NCBI GenBank assembly: GCA_913052475.1
Contig: CAJXEJ010000006.1
Location: 1 to 64,000 of the forward strand
Direction of reading: 5' to 3'
DNA: 64,000 nucleotides
Source of the DNA: an uncultured Dehalococcoidia bacterium
GTDB taxonomy: Bacteria > Chloroflexota > Dehalococcoidia > Lucifugimonadales > Lucifugimonadaceae
Part shown: piece after piece, positions 5,324 through 47,361 of the stretch
How the letters are laid out: the number at the start of each line of letters is the position of its first letter
Numbering within the stretch: position 1 is the stretch's first letter
The notes under the pieces: generated by a model
Databases searched by the model: none
What the model was told of the DNA's origin: nothing
Seen by the model: the letters and a program-made list of their open reading frames with translations, nothing else
Translations under genes and position numbers: made by a program

Positions 5324-5890
5324 TCAGAATCTAACGTAAGCAACCTCCGAAACGAGGTGGTAGTGGGCAGGTCGCGATCTCTCGGCGAGCCTCCAGCCCA
5401 CCCAGTTCCCGCAGCATAAATGTGCGTACTGGTGTTGCTGAATAAAGATGTACTAATTACCACAAGGCTAAATAGCTCCGTGATAATTTTTATATTTGCG
5501 AGCTAAATATTCATAGAGGCTCCAGTCACATCCCGGCAATATCTGGAACCGTCTGGGGACGAGTAGCCACCAGAGACGCGGCGAAGTTGTCCGCGAAGCA
5601 GGGCAAATACTGGCTTTCGAGCCGGCCTCCGTTTGGTGGCGGGTCGAATGCGGCGGTCATTTGATCGATTAACGGCAAATTCATCCCTAACTAACTCACC
5701 TCAAAGTCGGTAATCATGCGGTGCATGAATTCCGATCGAGGCTGTATCGAGGCTGTTAGGAACCGCCTTACCATCTCGCAGGCGCCGCATATATTTGATG
5801 AATAAACAGTGATCTGTGGCATTGTGTTGTTCTCAGGTTCTCGTCTCTCGAGGAGATCGGAGCACATCGACTGGGAATTTGTGCGTTAGT

Positions 5891-7570
5891 TCATGCCCTA
5901 TCCGTGATTTTCGCTGTACGAGATTGACTGTTTGTCATCAGAATCATGCTTTTACCTGCAGGGCCGCCAAATGAAGCGATCTCAATCTGCTCAGGACTAT
6001 TGAAAGCGGGCAAAATCGTATTAGCTGCTTGATCCGGCGTCAAATCGAGCACCCACTTCCATGGCGGAAGTAAGAACGCCGGATTTACTTTGAAGCCTTG
6101 CTGAATTTGCGCCGCGGTGATCTTGGTGTTGCCCCAGAGAAAATCCTGGACCATTTTCTTGTTCCAGCCGGCATCCTTGCATGCGTTCGCATGGTCGGGA
6201 CTGAGGATCACCAGCGCGCCGCCTCCGCCTCCAGCTGAGTACGGATCCGGGTCTGACCATCGGTAGCCGGTGTAACCACCACCACCTCTGATTCCGCCGG
6301 CGACTGATTTAAGAACACCTTCAGCTGTGTAATTAACAAGATCAGCCGCATCGTAAACGTTGCGGGCACCGACTACGGTCACAGTTGATTCGGAAGCTTT
6401 GAAACCTCGGCTCTCGTGGAATCCTTCCCATCGATCTGTAACGGAGGGTTCTGCGCCACACCATGAGAACTTGTTTGGAGAACCGATGGTGTCCATGTCC
6501 ATCTCGGTCGGGTAGTTGTGTCCCACGTTCATCAGCGCGAGCCGCATAGCCCGACCCAGCACGATGTTCACACGAGACTGCCTGCCTGGACCCAGAATGC
6601 ATTGCCCGGTGTTGATTCCGAGCTCTTCGACAATAGGACCGTTCACCATCATGAACGGTGCGTCGGGGGAAGTAGACATCAGCCACTGACGTGCCCGCGG
6701 TCCCAACTTGAGTATCGCCTTTATCGCAGTGATCACTACTGGAAGATGTGCTGGTTCGCAACCTGCCATGGCTGCAGAAATAGCGATCTTTTCGACCGTT
6801 GCGATACCCTCGCCCGGGGGCAGAATACCAACTACGTGGTCAGGTGCCAGCGTGGTTCCGCATAGCACAGCGTCGACACGTTCGCGGGTTGGCGGCATAA
6901 GCGGGAAGCCATCACCCCATCCGCGATCTAGATAATCACGATTGAAGTCGATGTACGCATCGATTCCAATCCCGTCGTATTCCAGATCCGGACCCGGTAT
7001 ACGATTTTCGGCGTCACCCTCATCCTCTTTTTTTACCTCTTGGGCAGGATTCGTTAAGCCTCGAATAATGCCGTCGATCTGTTCCGATATTGAATCTGCG
7101 GAACGCTCGGGTGGAACACCGGTAATGACCTCAGGGACAACGACGTACGGCGCGAGTGGCATGCCAAAGGCACGACAAGTTGCCAGAGTGTCGGTTTCGA
7201 AACCGGCTGAAGCGATCGAAACGGTCGGGATTCCCTTGCGCTCGATATAAATCATGTCGTGGACAAGCCACGACGTGCACTGGCCTCAGTCAGAGGAAGA
7301 GCCGACAACCACGTCGGACTCTTCAGCTGCCTGATCAAGAACTGCAGCCGGGGTGGGGATACCACCTTCGTACAGCGTTATGGACACATCCTTATACTGT
7401 CTGGAAAGCTCTTCTCCAACCCGGGTGAGGACGGCGTCTCCGCCTCGCTTCCTGTTCCAGACCAGCCCGAGTTTTAGACCGTCCAGCGATTTCGGACGAG
7501 GAGCAATGTCTGTCTGAACAGCGAGTTGCTTCATCTCCGATACCGGATTCAGGGTCACCAGTTTTTCCAT
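5891..7570 (-). CDS. UGSC-family (seleno)protein with long C-terminal extension; in-frame TGA (7286..7288) proposed as selenocysteine, Sec95
   Basis: ORFs 7286..7636 and 5891..7255 share one frame separated by a single TGA: ...SDVVVGSSSD-[TGA]-GQCTSWLVHDMIYIERKGIPTVSIASAGF...; start taken at internal Met (MEKLVTLNPVSEMK). Confidence 0.85.
7256..7274 (-). promoter_or_regulatory. candidate bacterial SECIS (bSECIS) hairpin downstream of in-frame UGA
   Basis: GTCGTGG-CTTGT-CCACGAC perfect 7-bp stem; apical loop begins 19 nt after the TGA; extends by 2 bp past a C-A mismatch. Confidence 0.6.
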
Positions 7571-7702
7571 ACCACAGTCCTTCTCAAAACGTTTATGAAA
7601 CCACCACCAGACAGGATGAATAGGCGAACAATCCATCCTGTTTAGTGACAGAACACAATTACCGAATTCGATAAGTCGCTCAGCGTGCCTAATTGATCAC
7701 TA

Positions 7703-41669: not shown

Positions 41670-43094
41670 GTGGGAGTGCCAACCAACGGAACGCACAGCA
41701 GGAGAGATATTTTGACCGAGTCCGCATACCGATCATTGCCATCGGTTGATGCACTTCTTCAATCAGATGAAGTTGCAGCACTAATTCGCGATTTCTCTCA
41801 TGACGCCGTGACCATGATCGCTCGAGACGTGCTGGGAAATGCCCGATCGAGAATTAAAGCCACTGGAAATGCTCCCGCAGCTGAAACGATGATCGCCGAA
41901 ATCGTAGAAAGAGTTGACACCGCATGGGGTGTATGGCCAAAGGCCGTTGTAAACGCCACCGGCGTGGTACTACACACGAATCTGGGTAGATCCCCACTGA
42001 GCGTGAGCGCTGCAAAGGCTGCCGCCGATTCTGCTTCGATCTACTCCGGCCTTGAGTTCGATATGGCATCCGGGAAACGGGGTTCTCGAAACGCCCATAT
42101 TTCAGAACTAATCTCGCAAATCTCGGGTGCCGATGCTGGTCTAGCCGTGAATAACAATGCATCGGGCGTGCTTCTCACACTCGCTGCTGTTGTCGGTGCT
42201 AATCCCGAAAAAACTGAAGTGATTGTTTCTCATGGTGAAGCTATCGAAATCGGTGGTGGGTTCAGGATTCCAGATGTCATGCACCAGTCGGGAGCGATGC
42301 TGGTCGAGGTTGGAACAACTAATCGAACTTATGCGACAGATTACGAAGCAGCGATCACTCCAAACACAGCCGCGATCCTAAAAGTCCATCCCAGCAATTT
42401 CGTGATTGAAGGATTCACGCATGTGCCTGAACTTTTTGAACTCACCGATGTTGGTAAAAAACACAACATTCCGGTAATTAACGATCTGGGTTCTGGTTGC
42501 CTTGTGGATACTCGAAAGTACGGTTTAAATCAGGAACTTCAGGTTCAAGATTCGGTATCTGAGGGTGCGGCGTTGACATTGTTCTCTGGTGACAAACTAC
42601 TTGGTGGACCTCAGGCAGGTTTGATCGCCGGTGACCAGAAGTGGGTGGACATCGTTGCAAAGCATCCGCTCGCACGAGCGGTTCGCATCGACAAAATGAC
42701 TCTCTCGGCGATCGCGGCAACACTGGTTTCGTACCTGAAGCAGGCACACGAGGAGGAAATCCCGATCTGGAACATGATTTCCATGAGTGAATCTCAAATT
42801 GCTGCACGAGCCGAACAGTGGCGCACCGAGATCGGTATGGGTAGAGTCGAACGAGCCCGTTCAGCGATCGGCGGTGGCTCGCTCCCCGGCCAAACCCTTC
42901 CGACTAGCGTCTTGGCTATCGAGCCACCCGTAAGTGCCGATCACTTTGCCGCCTGCCTTCGACAAAGCCCGGTCGCAGTTGTGGCGCGGATCGAGAACGA
43001 ACGTGTGTTGCTTGATCCGCGAACGGTGTTACCCGGACAAGATTCCGCAGTTGTTGAGGCAATTAAGTTTGCGCACGGGCAGTCAAGTGAATGA
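41670..43094 (+). CDS. selA: L-seryl-tRNA(Sec) selenium transferase
   Basis: VVNATGVVLHTNLGRSPLS, VNNNASGVLLTL, INDLGSG, LTLFSGDKLLGGPQAGLI (SelA signature incl. PLP-Lys region). Confidence 0.95.
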   Translation: MGVPTNGTHSRRDILTESAYRSLPSVDALLQSDEVAALIRDFSHDAVTMIARDVLGNARSRIKATGNAPAAETMIAEIVERVDTAWGVWPKAVVNATGVVLHTNLGRSPLSVSAAKAAADSASIYSGLEFDMASGKRGSRNAHISELISQISGADAGLAVNNNASGVLLTLAAVVGANPEKTEVIVSHGEAIEIGGGFRIPDVMHQSGAMLVEVGTTNRTYATDYEAAITPNTAAILKVHPSNFVIEGFTHVPELFELTDVGKKHNIPVINDLGSGCLVDTRKYGLNQELQVQDSVSEGAALTLFSGDKLLGGPQAGLIAGDQKWVDIVAKHPLARAVRIDKMTLSAIAATLVSYLKQAHEEEIPIWNMISMSESQIAARAEQWRTEIGMGRVERARSAIGGGSLPGQTLPTSVLAIEPPVSADHFAACLRQSPVAVVARIENERVLLDPRTVLPGQDSAVVEAIKFAHGQSSE

Positions 43095-43583: not shown

Positions 43584-44924
43584 ATGACGCTGTTTGACCA
43601 TCGAAAACAAGAGCTTCAAGATCGCATTGCCCCGTTGGCAACCCGAATGCGACCGCGAAATCTCGATGAATTTGTTGGTCAAAAGCAGATTCTGACTCCC
43701 GGCAAAGTACTTCGAAGGGCGATTGACGAAGATCGATTACCTTCGATGATCTTGTGGGGGCCACCGGGAAGCGGAAAAACCACACTGGCACGACTTGTCG
43801 CAGGTGCCACCAACTCGCATTTTGAACAGTTGAGCGCAGTGACGTCGGGTGTAAAGGACGTTCGAGCAGTGATGGCGCTGGCGGGTGACCGGCTCGGACA
43901 GACAGGTCGGCGAACGATCCTGTTTATCGATGAAATCCACCGATTCTCGAAGCCGCAGCAAGATGCACTACTACCTTACGTCGAAGACGGCACAGTAACC
44001 CTCATCGGTGCCACGACCGAAAATCCGTCGTTTGAGGTGATATCTCCTCTACTTTCTCGAACTCGTGTGTACACGCTCGAACCTCTGCAAGACGAAGATA
44101 TCGTCGAAATCATCAACCGCGCGATCAACGACGAAGATCACGGTTTGGGACGTGATGGTGTGTCGCTTTCAGATGATGCGATTAACTTCCTGCTTCGAGT
44201 CGCAAACGGAGATGCCAGATCTGCCCTGAACACACTTGAGTTAGCGGTCGAATCGACCGAAAGGGATAAATCGGGAAAGATCTCAGTCGAAGTCGAAACG
44301 ATGGAGGAGTCGCTACAGCGGCAATCCCGCTACGATCGACTCGGCGATATGCACTACTACACGATTTCGGCGTTCATCAAGACGATTCGTGCCTCCGATC
44401 CAGATGCCGCACTCTACTACTTGGCTCGAATGATCGACGCTGGAGAAGATCCCGTTTTCATCGCACGGCGTCTTGTCATTTCTGCTGCTGAAGATATCGG
44501 ACTTGCCAACCCCAACGGTCTCGCCGTAGCGATGGCTACCCAGCAAGCAGTGAGTTTTGTGGGCATGCCTGAAGGTCGAATTCCGCTTGCCGAAGCCACC
44601 ATCTACCTCGCAACTGCGCCGAAATCGAACTCGGCTTACAAGGCGATAGACAAGGCGTTGGAATTCGTACGTAACTCCCGAGATGAGCCGGTTCCTCAGC
44701 ATCTACGAAACGCACCGACACGCCTGATGAAAGATCTCGGCTACGGTGGAGGATACGAATATCCGCATGACAAGCCGGGACACTTTTCGCAGTCGGACAA
44801 TCTGCCCGAAGTAGTCAAGAACGAACGCTTCTACGAACCAGGTGATCTGGGTACCGAACAGGCGATCCGCGACCGACTGATAAATTGGTGGGGTAAACGC
44901 TACGGAAAACCCACTGATGATTAG
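43584..44924 (+). CDS. rarA: replication-associated recombination protein A (MgsA/RarA AAA ATPase)
   Basis: LATRMRPRNLDEFVGQKQIL...MILWGPPGSGKTTLARLVA...FIDEIHRFSKPQQDALLPYVEDGTVTLIGATTENPSFEV. Confidence 0.96.
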   Translation: MTLFDHRKQELQDRIAPLATRMRPRNLDEFVGQKQILTPGKVLRRAIDEDRLPSMILWGPPGSGKTTLARLVAGATNSHFEQLSAVTSGVKDVRAVMALAGDRLGQTGRRTILFIDEIHRFSKPQQDALLPYVEDGTVTLIGATTENPSFEVISPLLSRTRVYTLEPLQDEDIVEIINRAINDEDHGLGRDGVSLSDDAINFLLRVANGDARSALNTLELAVESTERDKSGKISVEVETMEESLQRQSRYDRLGDMHYYTISAFIKTIRASDPDAALYYLARMIDAGEDPVFIARRLVISAAEDIGLANPNGLAVAMATQQAVSFVGMPEGRIPLAEATIYLATAPKSNSAYKAIDKALEFVRNSRDEPVPQHLRNAPTRLMKDLGYGGGYEYPHDKPGHFSQSDNLPEVVKNERFYEPGDLGTEQAIRDRLINWWGKRYGKPTDD

Positions 44925-45435: not shown

Positions 45436-46286
45436 CAGTTCTGCCGAATATTGCTCACCTCCTCGATAAAGATGTCGTTCAACGATGGCATCACCTGTTC
45501 AAATCTTGAAAGCACGATCCCGGCGGGTGCATAAGCAGCCAATATCGCTTCAGGATCAAGTTCGCTACCTAGTCGACATTCAACTTGACCTGCACGCTCG
45601 GCGTGCCTCTCTGCGGCGGGAAACGGATCGCCTCTCTGCGGCTTCCACGACTACGGCATTGATCCTCGAGAGCGGCGAATTTTGGCAAGCTCACCGAAAA
45701 GCAACAGGCGGCTATCAGCATTGAGGGCTACCTGTTCATACATCTCTTCAACATCTGACATGGCGTGTGTGCTGAATATGATCGTGGCTCAGCGCTGCTG
45801 CTCAGCCGAGAGCATCTCCTTCATCAGTTGCACGTTGAGAGGGTCGGGCTCGAAACCGGTTTGTCGAGGATGATCAGTTCAGGGTGGTGAATCAGCGATA
45901 CAACGTACCGAACAAGCTGCATCATTCTCCTAGAAAGCCCTTCGTCTTTCTTGTCGCTATGCTCATACAGGCCAACCCAGTGAAGAAGTTCAAGATCTCG
46001 ATCGTAGGCTCCATCTTTTTCGAGACCGCGAAAGCGCTCCAGATACCGAAGAACGTTCGAGACTTTCTCTTTCCGGAGTAGACCACGCTCCTCGGGAAGA
46101 TAACCAACGCGCGGCATTGCCTCGGAAGCGGTTAAGCCATCGAGTAATCGTTGTTGTCTTGTTAGAACCGTTTGGTCCAAGGAATCCGAGTACATCGCCC
46201 TACTAGACTGTAAACGAAACGTCGCCGACTACCGTTTTGTCGCCAAACTGCTTGGTGAGTCCCTCAATTCCGAGCGCGTATGCCAT
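45436..46286 (-). pseudogene. ABC transporter ATPase (NatA-like) pseudogene
   Basis: MAYALGIEGLTKQFGDKTVVGDVSFTV* / GDVLGFLGPNGSNKTTTI (Walker A G-to-N) / VGYLPEERGLLRKEKVSNVLRYLERFRGL...LSRRMMQLVRYVVSLIHHPELIILDKP / STHAMSDVEEMYEQVALNADSRLLLFGELAKIRRSRG / FEQVMPSLNDIFIEEVSN in different frames with stops. Confidence 0.85.
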
Positions 46287-46326: not shown

Positions 46327-47361
46327 CTAGGCGATCTCGTTCATCACCCGGTCTAGAGCCGAGATAGTAAATTCGTAGTCTTCAGAAGAAACACCATAGT
46401 GAGTCACGATGCGCAGATCAGAATCACCACCGTTGATGTAGACGCCTTCTTCTTTCATTCGAGCCGCTATTCGGTTCCCTGTGTGGGCAGGCACACCAAA
46501 CCGGATGATGTTGGTCTGGATGTGTTCGGGATCGACCGTGATACCTTTCATCTCCGCCATTCTCGAGGCGATGTGACGTGCGCTATCGTGATCTTCCTGC
46601 ATACGATCAATCATCGAATCGAGCGCCACTAATCCGGCAGCTGCAACAACTCCAACTTGTCGCATTCCAGAGCCAAGCATCTTCCGCCAACGATCTGCTT
46701 CTTCGATGAAATCTTTGGAACCGACAACAATCGATCCGATCGGACAGGAAAGACCTTTCGAAAGACAGAAGGTGGCACTATCAACATTTTCGGTCAGATC
46801 AGATGCAGGAACTCTGAGCGCAATGGCTGCGTTGAAAATTCGTGCTCCGTCGAGATGGACGTTCAATCCCATCTCGTGGGCAGCATCGGCCATCGTTTTC
46901 ATCTGATCAGCGTTCAGCGCTCTACCGCTCGACGCGTTGTGGGTATTCTCGATAGTAAGCAAGCGGGTCGGTGGCTTGTGGTAATCGCGAGGATTCACAG
47001 CTGCCTTGATCAGGTCTGGTTCGAGAAATCCGAATGCGTTCGTCTTGATTGGAAATAAAACCACGCTACCTAGCACCATTGCGCCGCCGGCTTCAGCATT
47101 CATGATGTGGCACTGGTCACCGACAAGCACTTCATCGCCTCGCTGTGCGTGAGAAAGCACCGAAACAAGGTTTCCCTGCGTGCCGGATGAAACGAATAAC
47201 CCGGCTTCTTTACCAAGCATGTCAGCTGCGCGCTGCTGTAACTCGTTGACTGTAGGATCGTCGCCATAGACGTCATCACCGAGCTCAGCCTCGTACATCG
47301 CTCGTCGCATTTCAGGGCTGGGATGTGTGACGGTATCACTCCTCAGGTCGACTCGGATCAT
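46327..47361 (-). CDS. low-specificity L-threonine aldolase / GLY1-type beta-eliminating lyase
   Basis: RSDTVTHPSPEMRRAMYEAELGDDVYGDDPTVNELQ...ENTHNASSGRAL...CLSKGLSCPIGSIVVG. Confidence 0.94.
   Translation of the reverse strand: MIRVDLRSDTVTHPSPEMRRAMYEAELGDDVYGDDPTVNELQQRAADMLGKEAGLFVSSGTQGNLVSVLSHAQRGDEVLVGDQCHIMNAEAGGAMVLGSVVLFPIKTNAFGFLEPDLIKAAVNPRDYHKPPTRLLTIENTHNASSGRALNADQMKTMADAAHEMGLNVHLDGARIFNAAIALRVPASDLTENVDSATFCLSKGLSCPIGSIVVGSKDFIEEADRWRKMLGSGMRQVGVVAAAGLVALDSMIDRMQEDHDSARHIASRMAEMKGITVDPEHIQTNIIRFGVPAHTGNRIAARMKEEGVYINGGDSDLRIVTHYGVSSEDYEFTISALDRVMNEIA

Follow-up and report, generated by a model that had tools for sequence, protein, structure and literature searches.

What is encoded on the minus strand between positions 7570 and 5891 of the window analysed here, a stretch of 64,000 nucleotides on contig C6 of an uncultured Dehalococcoidia bacterium: a broken gene, two separate proteins or one selenoprotein, and with which function? 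At this locus, the open reading frame (ORF) 7286..7636 closes at a TGA (7288..7286), and the frame is then free of stops until a second TGA at 5893..5891. The first-pass annotation, made from the sequence alone, had proposed that the TGA lying between the two ORFs encodes selenocysteine (Sec) in a protein of the UGSC family. A re-reading of the sequence confirmed that both ORFs share one frame with no further stop and that the read-through junction is VVGSSSD-U-GQCTSWLVHDMIYIERKGIPTVSIASAGF. From 7570 to 5891, the minus strand is a single frame of 559 codons whose sole internal stop is the TGA 7288..7286, at codon 95. The first ORF is listed as opening at 7636; judging from the sequence, the most likely translation start is the ATG 7570..7568 (MEKLVT), because a Shine-Dalgarno-like AAGGA can be read directly at 7582..7578 on the same strand and because the relatives use the identical start. 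The Sec therefore falls at residue 95, as initially proposed. The resulting coding sequence (5891..7570, minus strand), whose start and architecture are shared by orthologs, almost certainly specifies a selenoprotein of 559 amino acids. In this protein a UGSC domain is followed by a C-terminal partner domain (CTD), and UGA95 would be decoded as Sec under the direction of a downstream hairpin and of the organism's own SelA, SelB, SelD and tRNA-Sec. The source genome (2.13 Mb, 86 contigs) is 90.6% complete, and the relatives found by sequence are metagenome-assembled genomes (MAGs) of Chloroflexota, many of them labelled SAR202 or Dehalococcoidia.

The internal TGA is shared by the homologs of this gene. 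When the CTD was used to search the GTDB species genomes, 80 loci from many phyla were obtained, and all 77 UGSC copies of these loci with a scorable Sec column have TGA at this position. Exactly one internal TGA is present in 34 of the 36 UGSC-CTD fusions, the other two having an unscorable Sec site, and no other internal TGA was seen. The codon is likewise invariant in the 51 fused genes of our alignment, and nearly all full-length homologs in 60 related genomes have exactly one internal TGA. When 301 Chloroflexota genomes were considered, TGA was found in 68 of 72 UGSC matches; the remaining four are a decayed copy from the source genome, a short piece ending before the site and two full-length proteins in which the entire motif is lost. 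None of the homologs ends at the TGA, beyond which their frame continues. The first-pass annotation expected the U to align with conserved Cys or Sec. This proved right for the Sec codon; no Cys-containing homolog was found in the samples examined, and both inspected full-length homologs without TGA are devoid of the UxxC motif. A genome-wide reassignment of TGA was rejected, as this codon is the ordinary stop of 15 of the 47 confident genes of the window. Together with the hairpin and the Sec machinery described below, these comparisons in practice exclude reassignment, pseudogene and sequencing error.

Other fused genes were encountered in the course of these searches. The source genome carries a decayed paralog of the fused gene (C4:10860-11742, L174) in pieces that are 70-82% identical and change frame, with a deletion of approximately residues 85-343 that includes the Sec site. 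It also encodes, at C36:18772-20346 (L026), a second fused UGSC-CTD selenoprotein with a UGTCA motif, the common form in the genus, in which Ala replaces the cysteine of the MAGC motif of the CTD. In locus L172 (G236:C21), two fused copies (ORFs at 184 and 4237) flank a gene for an ATP-binding cassette (ABC) substrate-binding protein; one reads U-G-S-C and the other GDTRSG, with neither Sec nor Cys, which suggests that this duplicate lost its redox motif. The loci L087, L124 and L140 belong to MAG records whose titles, Bordetella parapertussis and Asaia bogorensis, look like an automatic misnaming of environmental MAGs.

The search for a signal of the selenocysteine insertion sequence (SECIS) type revealed a conserved hairpin past the UGA. 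This SECIS-like element (7256..7274, minus strand) starts 11 nt past the UGA and consists of a 7-bp stem, GUCGUGG/CCACGAC, and a CUUGU loop. All seven stem pairs are kept in 50 of the 51 aligned fused genes, these hairpin counts being drawn from related sequences and hence not independent trials. Double compensatory changes replace G-C by A-U at the base of the stem in L051 and in mid-stem in L055. With random synonymous codons taken from each gene's own usage, the stem survives in 7.6% of cases on average. Synonymous codon choice in the stem is constrained: Ser100 is encoded by TCG in 50 of 51 genes, His104 by CAC in 45 of 46 and Asp105 by GAC in 49 of 51, a bias that ranks among the highest of the alignment, with Ser100 showing the strongest in the gene. 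The rule used by bSECISearch places a G within the first two loop positions; here this requires that the closing G-C pair be taken as open.

The machinery required for Sec incorporation is encoded in the same genome. SelA, the L-seryl-tRNA(Sec) selenium transferase, lies within the window as previously stated, at 41670..43094 on the plus strand (TIGR00474, E 3.5e-151, 504 bits for a cut-off of 268). A search for the other components located all of them. The tRNA-Sec (selC) is at C13:33156, with 67.7 bits and the anticodon TCA according to ARAGORN; selB is on C26, where 336 N-terminal amino acids (290 bits, cut-off 242) precede the contig end; and selD, on C70, is itself Sec-containing, with a CAGU motif.

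The proposed membership of the UGSC family was upheld by one profile and less completely by another. The Pfam UGSC profile PF24696 matches residues 7-173 of the read-through protein (7052..7552, minus strand) with an E-value of ~9e-32 and 111 bits (cut-off 25). A profile-wide match is obtained by the read-through protein only, the separate pieces scoring 41 and 29.5 bits. The NCBIfam model NF041046 covers profile positions 2-144 of 147 with 91.7 bits, below its equivalog cut-off of 125 bits. By the Pfam test the protein is a member of the family, of which it is an outlying branch because NF041046 agrees in placement yet scores under the curated cut-off. The (U/C)-G-x-C motif announced for this place is present as U-G-Q-C, aligned with the Sec position of the homologs: the Sec codon (7286..7288) is followed by that of Cys98 (7277..7279), the putative resolving cysteine, which is Cys in 63 of 64 UGSC rows.

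The second half of the protein, from approximately residue 195 to its end (~365 amino acids; 5894..6988, minus strand), has no match in Pfam or NCBIfam. Sequence searches of the PDB with three profiles (A1, A2 and A3) gave chance matches only and no solved relative, and a search of a viral fold library gave nothing useful. The cyclic amide hydrolases AtzD/TrzD recurred in the CTD fold search with a low TM-score, and this candidate was rejected, its hhalign score of 19.6 being within the decoy range (<=23.0). The conserved residues include W218, D220, G221, A269, G270, P273, N310, G311, P312, N335, G339, R340, N348, G363, K367, C371, E374 and W381. Cys371 (codon 6458..6460) is Cys in 64 of 66 CTD rows, and Cys271, in the motif M-A-G-C (codon 6758..6760), is Cys in 57 of 66 and Ala in the other nine.

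This domain is closely associated with UGSC, to which it is fused or adjacent in 74 of the 80 loci. It is fused behind UGSC in 36 loci and in front of it in one, and it lies beside an upstream UGSC gene in 10 loci and a downstream one in 27. A CTD-UGSC gene pair is present in Reyranella aquatilis (L120), a host in culture. The single reverse-order fusion (L109:3492-5093), in which the CTD precedes UGSC, carries one TGA, which is at the Sec site. The six loci labelled as having no UGSC within 600 bases comprise L098, where a UGSC gene is found 950 bases upstream of the CTD, four loci of Poribacteria and one locus on a 2.6 kb contig. In the Poribacteria (L112, L116, L129 and L135), the stand-alone CTD has no UGSC gene nearby and adjoins CBS-domain and 2-oxoacid:ferredoxin oxidoreductase-like genes. 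Both arrangements coexist in the source genome, on whose contig C1 a separate small UGSC gene is directly followed by a stand-alone CTD copy. In a tree of the CTD, the forward fusion requires ~6 changes, of which at least 3 are forced by well-supported branches. The first-pass annotation had regarded the C-terminal product as a probably misannotated fragment. Gene callers would indeed split the gene, but on sequence evidence this product is a real, separate and conserved partner domain. UGSC and CTD are very likely subunits of one enzyme, because domains that have fused repeatedly, and in either order, usually belong to the same complex as subunits.

The structure of the protein was predicted with AlphaFold2 from a 95-row alignment (mean pLDDT 93.7, pTM 0.93). 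In this model, the UGSC domain consists of five strand-helix repeats, with strands at 33-38, 63-68, 87-93, 116-121 and 142-145, and Sec95 is located between strand 87-93 and helix 96-111, that is, between strand 3 and helix 3. The domain is thus predicted to be Rossmann-like and to depart from the thioredoxin order beta-alpha-beta-alpha-beta-beta-alpha. The fold search of the PDB with this model returned partial matches to Rossmann-type proteins and not a single thioredoxin among the best 50.

A kinship with known reductases emerged from profile comparisons. When the members of the alignment were compared with NCBIfam, the selenoprotein B families of glycine, betaine, sarcosine and D-proline reductases were the only other families matched repeatedly. 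TIGR01917 (GrdB) was matched weakly by 27 of 64 UGSC rows (best E 3.1e-4) and the PrdB model TIGR04483 weakly by four, with further matches to GrdF, TIGR01918 and GrdH. An hhalign template profile was prepared from selenoproteins of other Chloroflexota, both GrdB and PrdB-like, and trimmed to the Sec region. The UGSC profile aligned to it Sec on Sec with a probability of 90.2 and a score of 46.1, against at most 24.2 for 100 column-shuffled decoys. This result depends on the template set, because the probability is 21 with PrdB-like sequences alone and 90 once true GrdB is added and the Sec region trimmed. The GrdB-like protein L143 reads ATUGSCNRCG at Sec. The UGSC domain probably shares descent with the selenoprotein B of glycine/betaine/sarcosine reductase and the PrdB of D-proline reductase. 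The source genome also encodes a separate PrdB-like selenoprotein at C1:98847-99257 (L156), with TGA in U-P-L-C and 98 bits for TIGR04483 (cut-off 300).

The gene neighborhood provides a view of the possible substrates. Gene names given here are from a reading of the sequences, the ABC set and the glutaredoxin excepted. In the window, as in L062, L063, L068 and L097, a dipeptide-type ABC transporter adjoins the gene, and these transporter genes suggest substrate import. Other loci contain genes for tripartite-type binding proteins, CoA transferases, MmgE/PrpD-type proteins and 2-hydroxyacid dehydrogenases, and apparent indolepyruvate oxidoreductase genes are found in Synergistes. These neighbors suggest that an amino- or carboxylic-acid-like compound is imported and catabolised. 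In G009, the nearest complete ortholog (88% identity), the gene that follows in the same orientation encodes a CGAC glutaredoxin (L178:189-437) and precedes a NifU-like gene; glutaredoxin and NifU-like genes are also found beside L063, L051 and L055. The NifU-like gene is missing in the window, where the glutaredoxin, complete in this ortholog, is represented by a 43-amino-acid piece (5691..5822, minus strand; TIGR02196, E 0.0019). Elsewhere in the window, a decayed ABC transporter ATPase gene lies in several frames at ~45857-46274 on the minus strand, between the genes 43584-44924 and 46327-47361.

Taken together, UGSC-CTD probably uses its selenol to reduce a small molecule that the cell imports. 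Given the shared descent with GrdB/PrdB, the selenolate would be expected to serve as nucleophile or reductant: placed at the start of helix 3, it would cleave or reduce a small substrate, probably amino- or carboxylic-acid-like, held by the CTD. Cys98 would resolve the selenenyl-sulfide, which would then be reduced again by a small thiol donor, for instance the glutaredoxin encoded next to the gene in close relatives. These steps, taken jointly, form a plausible scheme that is put forward tentatively, its chances falling just short of even. The explanation as a whole, namely a selenoprotein that is a two-part, GrdB/PrdB-related enzyme with a reductive mechanism, is favored with moderate confidence. 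It is conceivable, although we lean against asserting it, that UGSC and CTD define a widespread and unrecognised class of selenium-dependent reductases. Such a class would be two-component and often fused; its catalytic half would come from an ancestor that it shares with GrdB/PrdB, its pyruvoyl subunit would have been replaced by a protein without known family, and it would be nearly obligately dependent on selenium in the sampled genomes.

Other explanations have to be weighed against this one. Were the TGA a genuine stop, or an error of sequencing, the locus would hold either a broken gene or the genes of two distinct proteins. This is the very picture given by the output of a gene caller, and the decay of the paralog on C4 and the truncation of the neighboring glutaredoxin ortholog, both in the same genome, go in this direction. 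Such an explanation has next to no chance of being correct, as the identical TGA in an otherwise intact frame recurs in dozens of independently assembled genomes, the hairpin and its synonymous constraint extend past it and the Sec machinery is present; sequence conservation has by itself already refuted it. An alternative that accepts the selenoprotein makes UGSC a general thioredoxin-like thiol oxidoreductase, along the lines suggested in 2008, the CTD then being either its disulfide substrate or another redox domain that has a Cys pair of its own. The UxxC motif does resemble CxxC, and the CTD does have two conserved cysteines, C271 and C371. The predicted succession of about five beta-alpha units is nevertheless not the thioredoxin order, the best 50 fold matches include Rossmann-type proteins and no thioredoxin, the profile similarity goes to GrdB/PrdB and C271 gives way to Ala in 9 of 66 rows, so that this alternative is considered unlikely. 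It is rather improbable that UGSC-CTD is not redox-catalytic and that its selenolate is a binding site for a metal or heme-like ligand. Metal binding is suspected for a number of other uncharacterised selenoproteins, according to a review (PMC13188914), the CTD combines conserved Cys, His, Asp and Glu with the lack of a fold match, and a NifU-like gene is found near close orthologs. Against this stand the position of Sec, which follows strand 3 in a Rossmann-like domain and has its resolving Cys three residues further along, as in the GrdB/PrdB reductases, and the predominance of catabolic and transport neighbors.

The favored explanation, a two-part selenium-dependent reductase related to GrdB/PrdB, has to accommodate a number of points that weigh against it, to which the relatedness of the sequences behind the hairpin counts belongs. 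Sec95 is predicted here from gene sequences, and the hairpin of the window is by itself not unusually stable (z -0.85). The link with GrdB/PrdB is restricted to ~47 columns around Sec and is for this reason held as probable and not proven; the window protein itself has no match to Pfam PF07355. No pyruvoyl subunit GrdE/PrdA (PF09338) was found in the source genome, and the CTD was rejected as a relative of this subunit (score 18.3, probability 0.2). With this subunit missing and the CTD unrelated to it, the chemistry cannot be a replica of that of the glycine and proline reductases. The fold search of the PDB gave no convincing match for the CTD and none naming a substrate. Finally, the transporter neighborhood is not universal among the loci, and the glutaredoxin is reduced to a remnant in the source genome.

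A dedicated partner domain joined to a reductase-like catalytic half provides a testable hypothesis for a family without assigned function. This hypothesis concerns a selenium-dependent catabolism that SAR202-like Chloroflexota and many proteobacteria would carry out. Automatic annotation hides such genes and would file their halves as unrelated hypothetical proteins. In the 2008 survey that described it, UGSC is a major selenoprotein family of ocean metagenomes, with 255 Sec forms for 21 Cys forms, and is termed "likely Trx-like" with no function given (PMC2398784). It ranks with the commonest selenoproteins of ocean and freshwater metagenomes, where it accounts for 8.2% of the selenoprotein genes (PMC9402790). 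The same 2008 survey reports, in its Figure S1A, the fusion of UGSC to a domain "Unknown_1" with conserved Cys in aquatic organisms (PMC2398784). Its description agrees with our protein in the association of UGSC with a conserved domain containing conserved Cys, and Unknown_1, compared by description only, is probably the CTD. The UGSC family, its Sec and its fusion with an unknown domain are therefore already known from what that survey describes (PMC2398784). The apparently new elements are the association of the two partners across a broad sample, the Rossmann-like fold prediction, the almost complete lack of Cys versions among the samples and the link with GrdB/PrdB, which was not described in the literature passages searched.

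Compared with the UGSC family as defined by PF24696 and NF041046, the window protein has the same whole-profile domain match, U-G-x-C motif, Sec codon and downstream hairpin; it differs by its NF041046 score below cut-off, by its additional C-terminal domain of ~365 amino acids and by UGQC instead of UGSC. With PrdB (TIGR04483), it shares the nature of a UxxC selenoprotein; PrdB works with the pyruvoyl protein PrdA, a partner that has no counterpart in the source genome. PrdB is homologous to GrdB (PMC13188914). Relative to GrdB, GrdF and GrdH (PF07355, TIGR01917/01918), the window protein has a shorter N-terminal part, neither a pyruvoyl partner gene nor a PF07355 match, and the CTD as partner. 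It resembles them in the motif U-G-[ST]-C-[TN], in the strand-Sec-helix setting followed by E..G[IL]P.V, and in the profile similarity around Sec.
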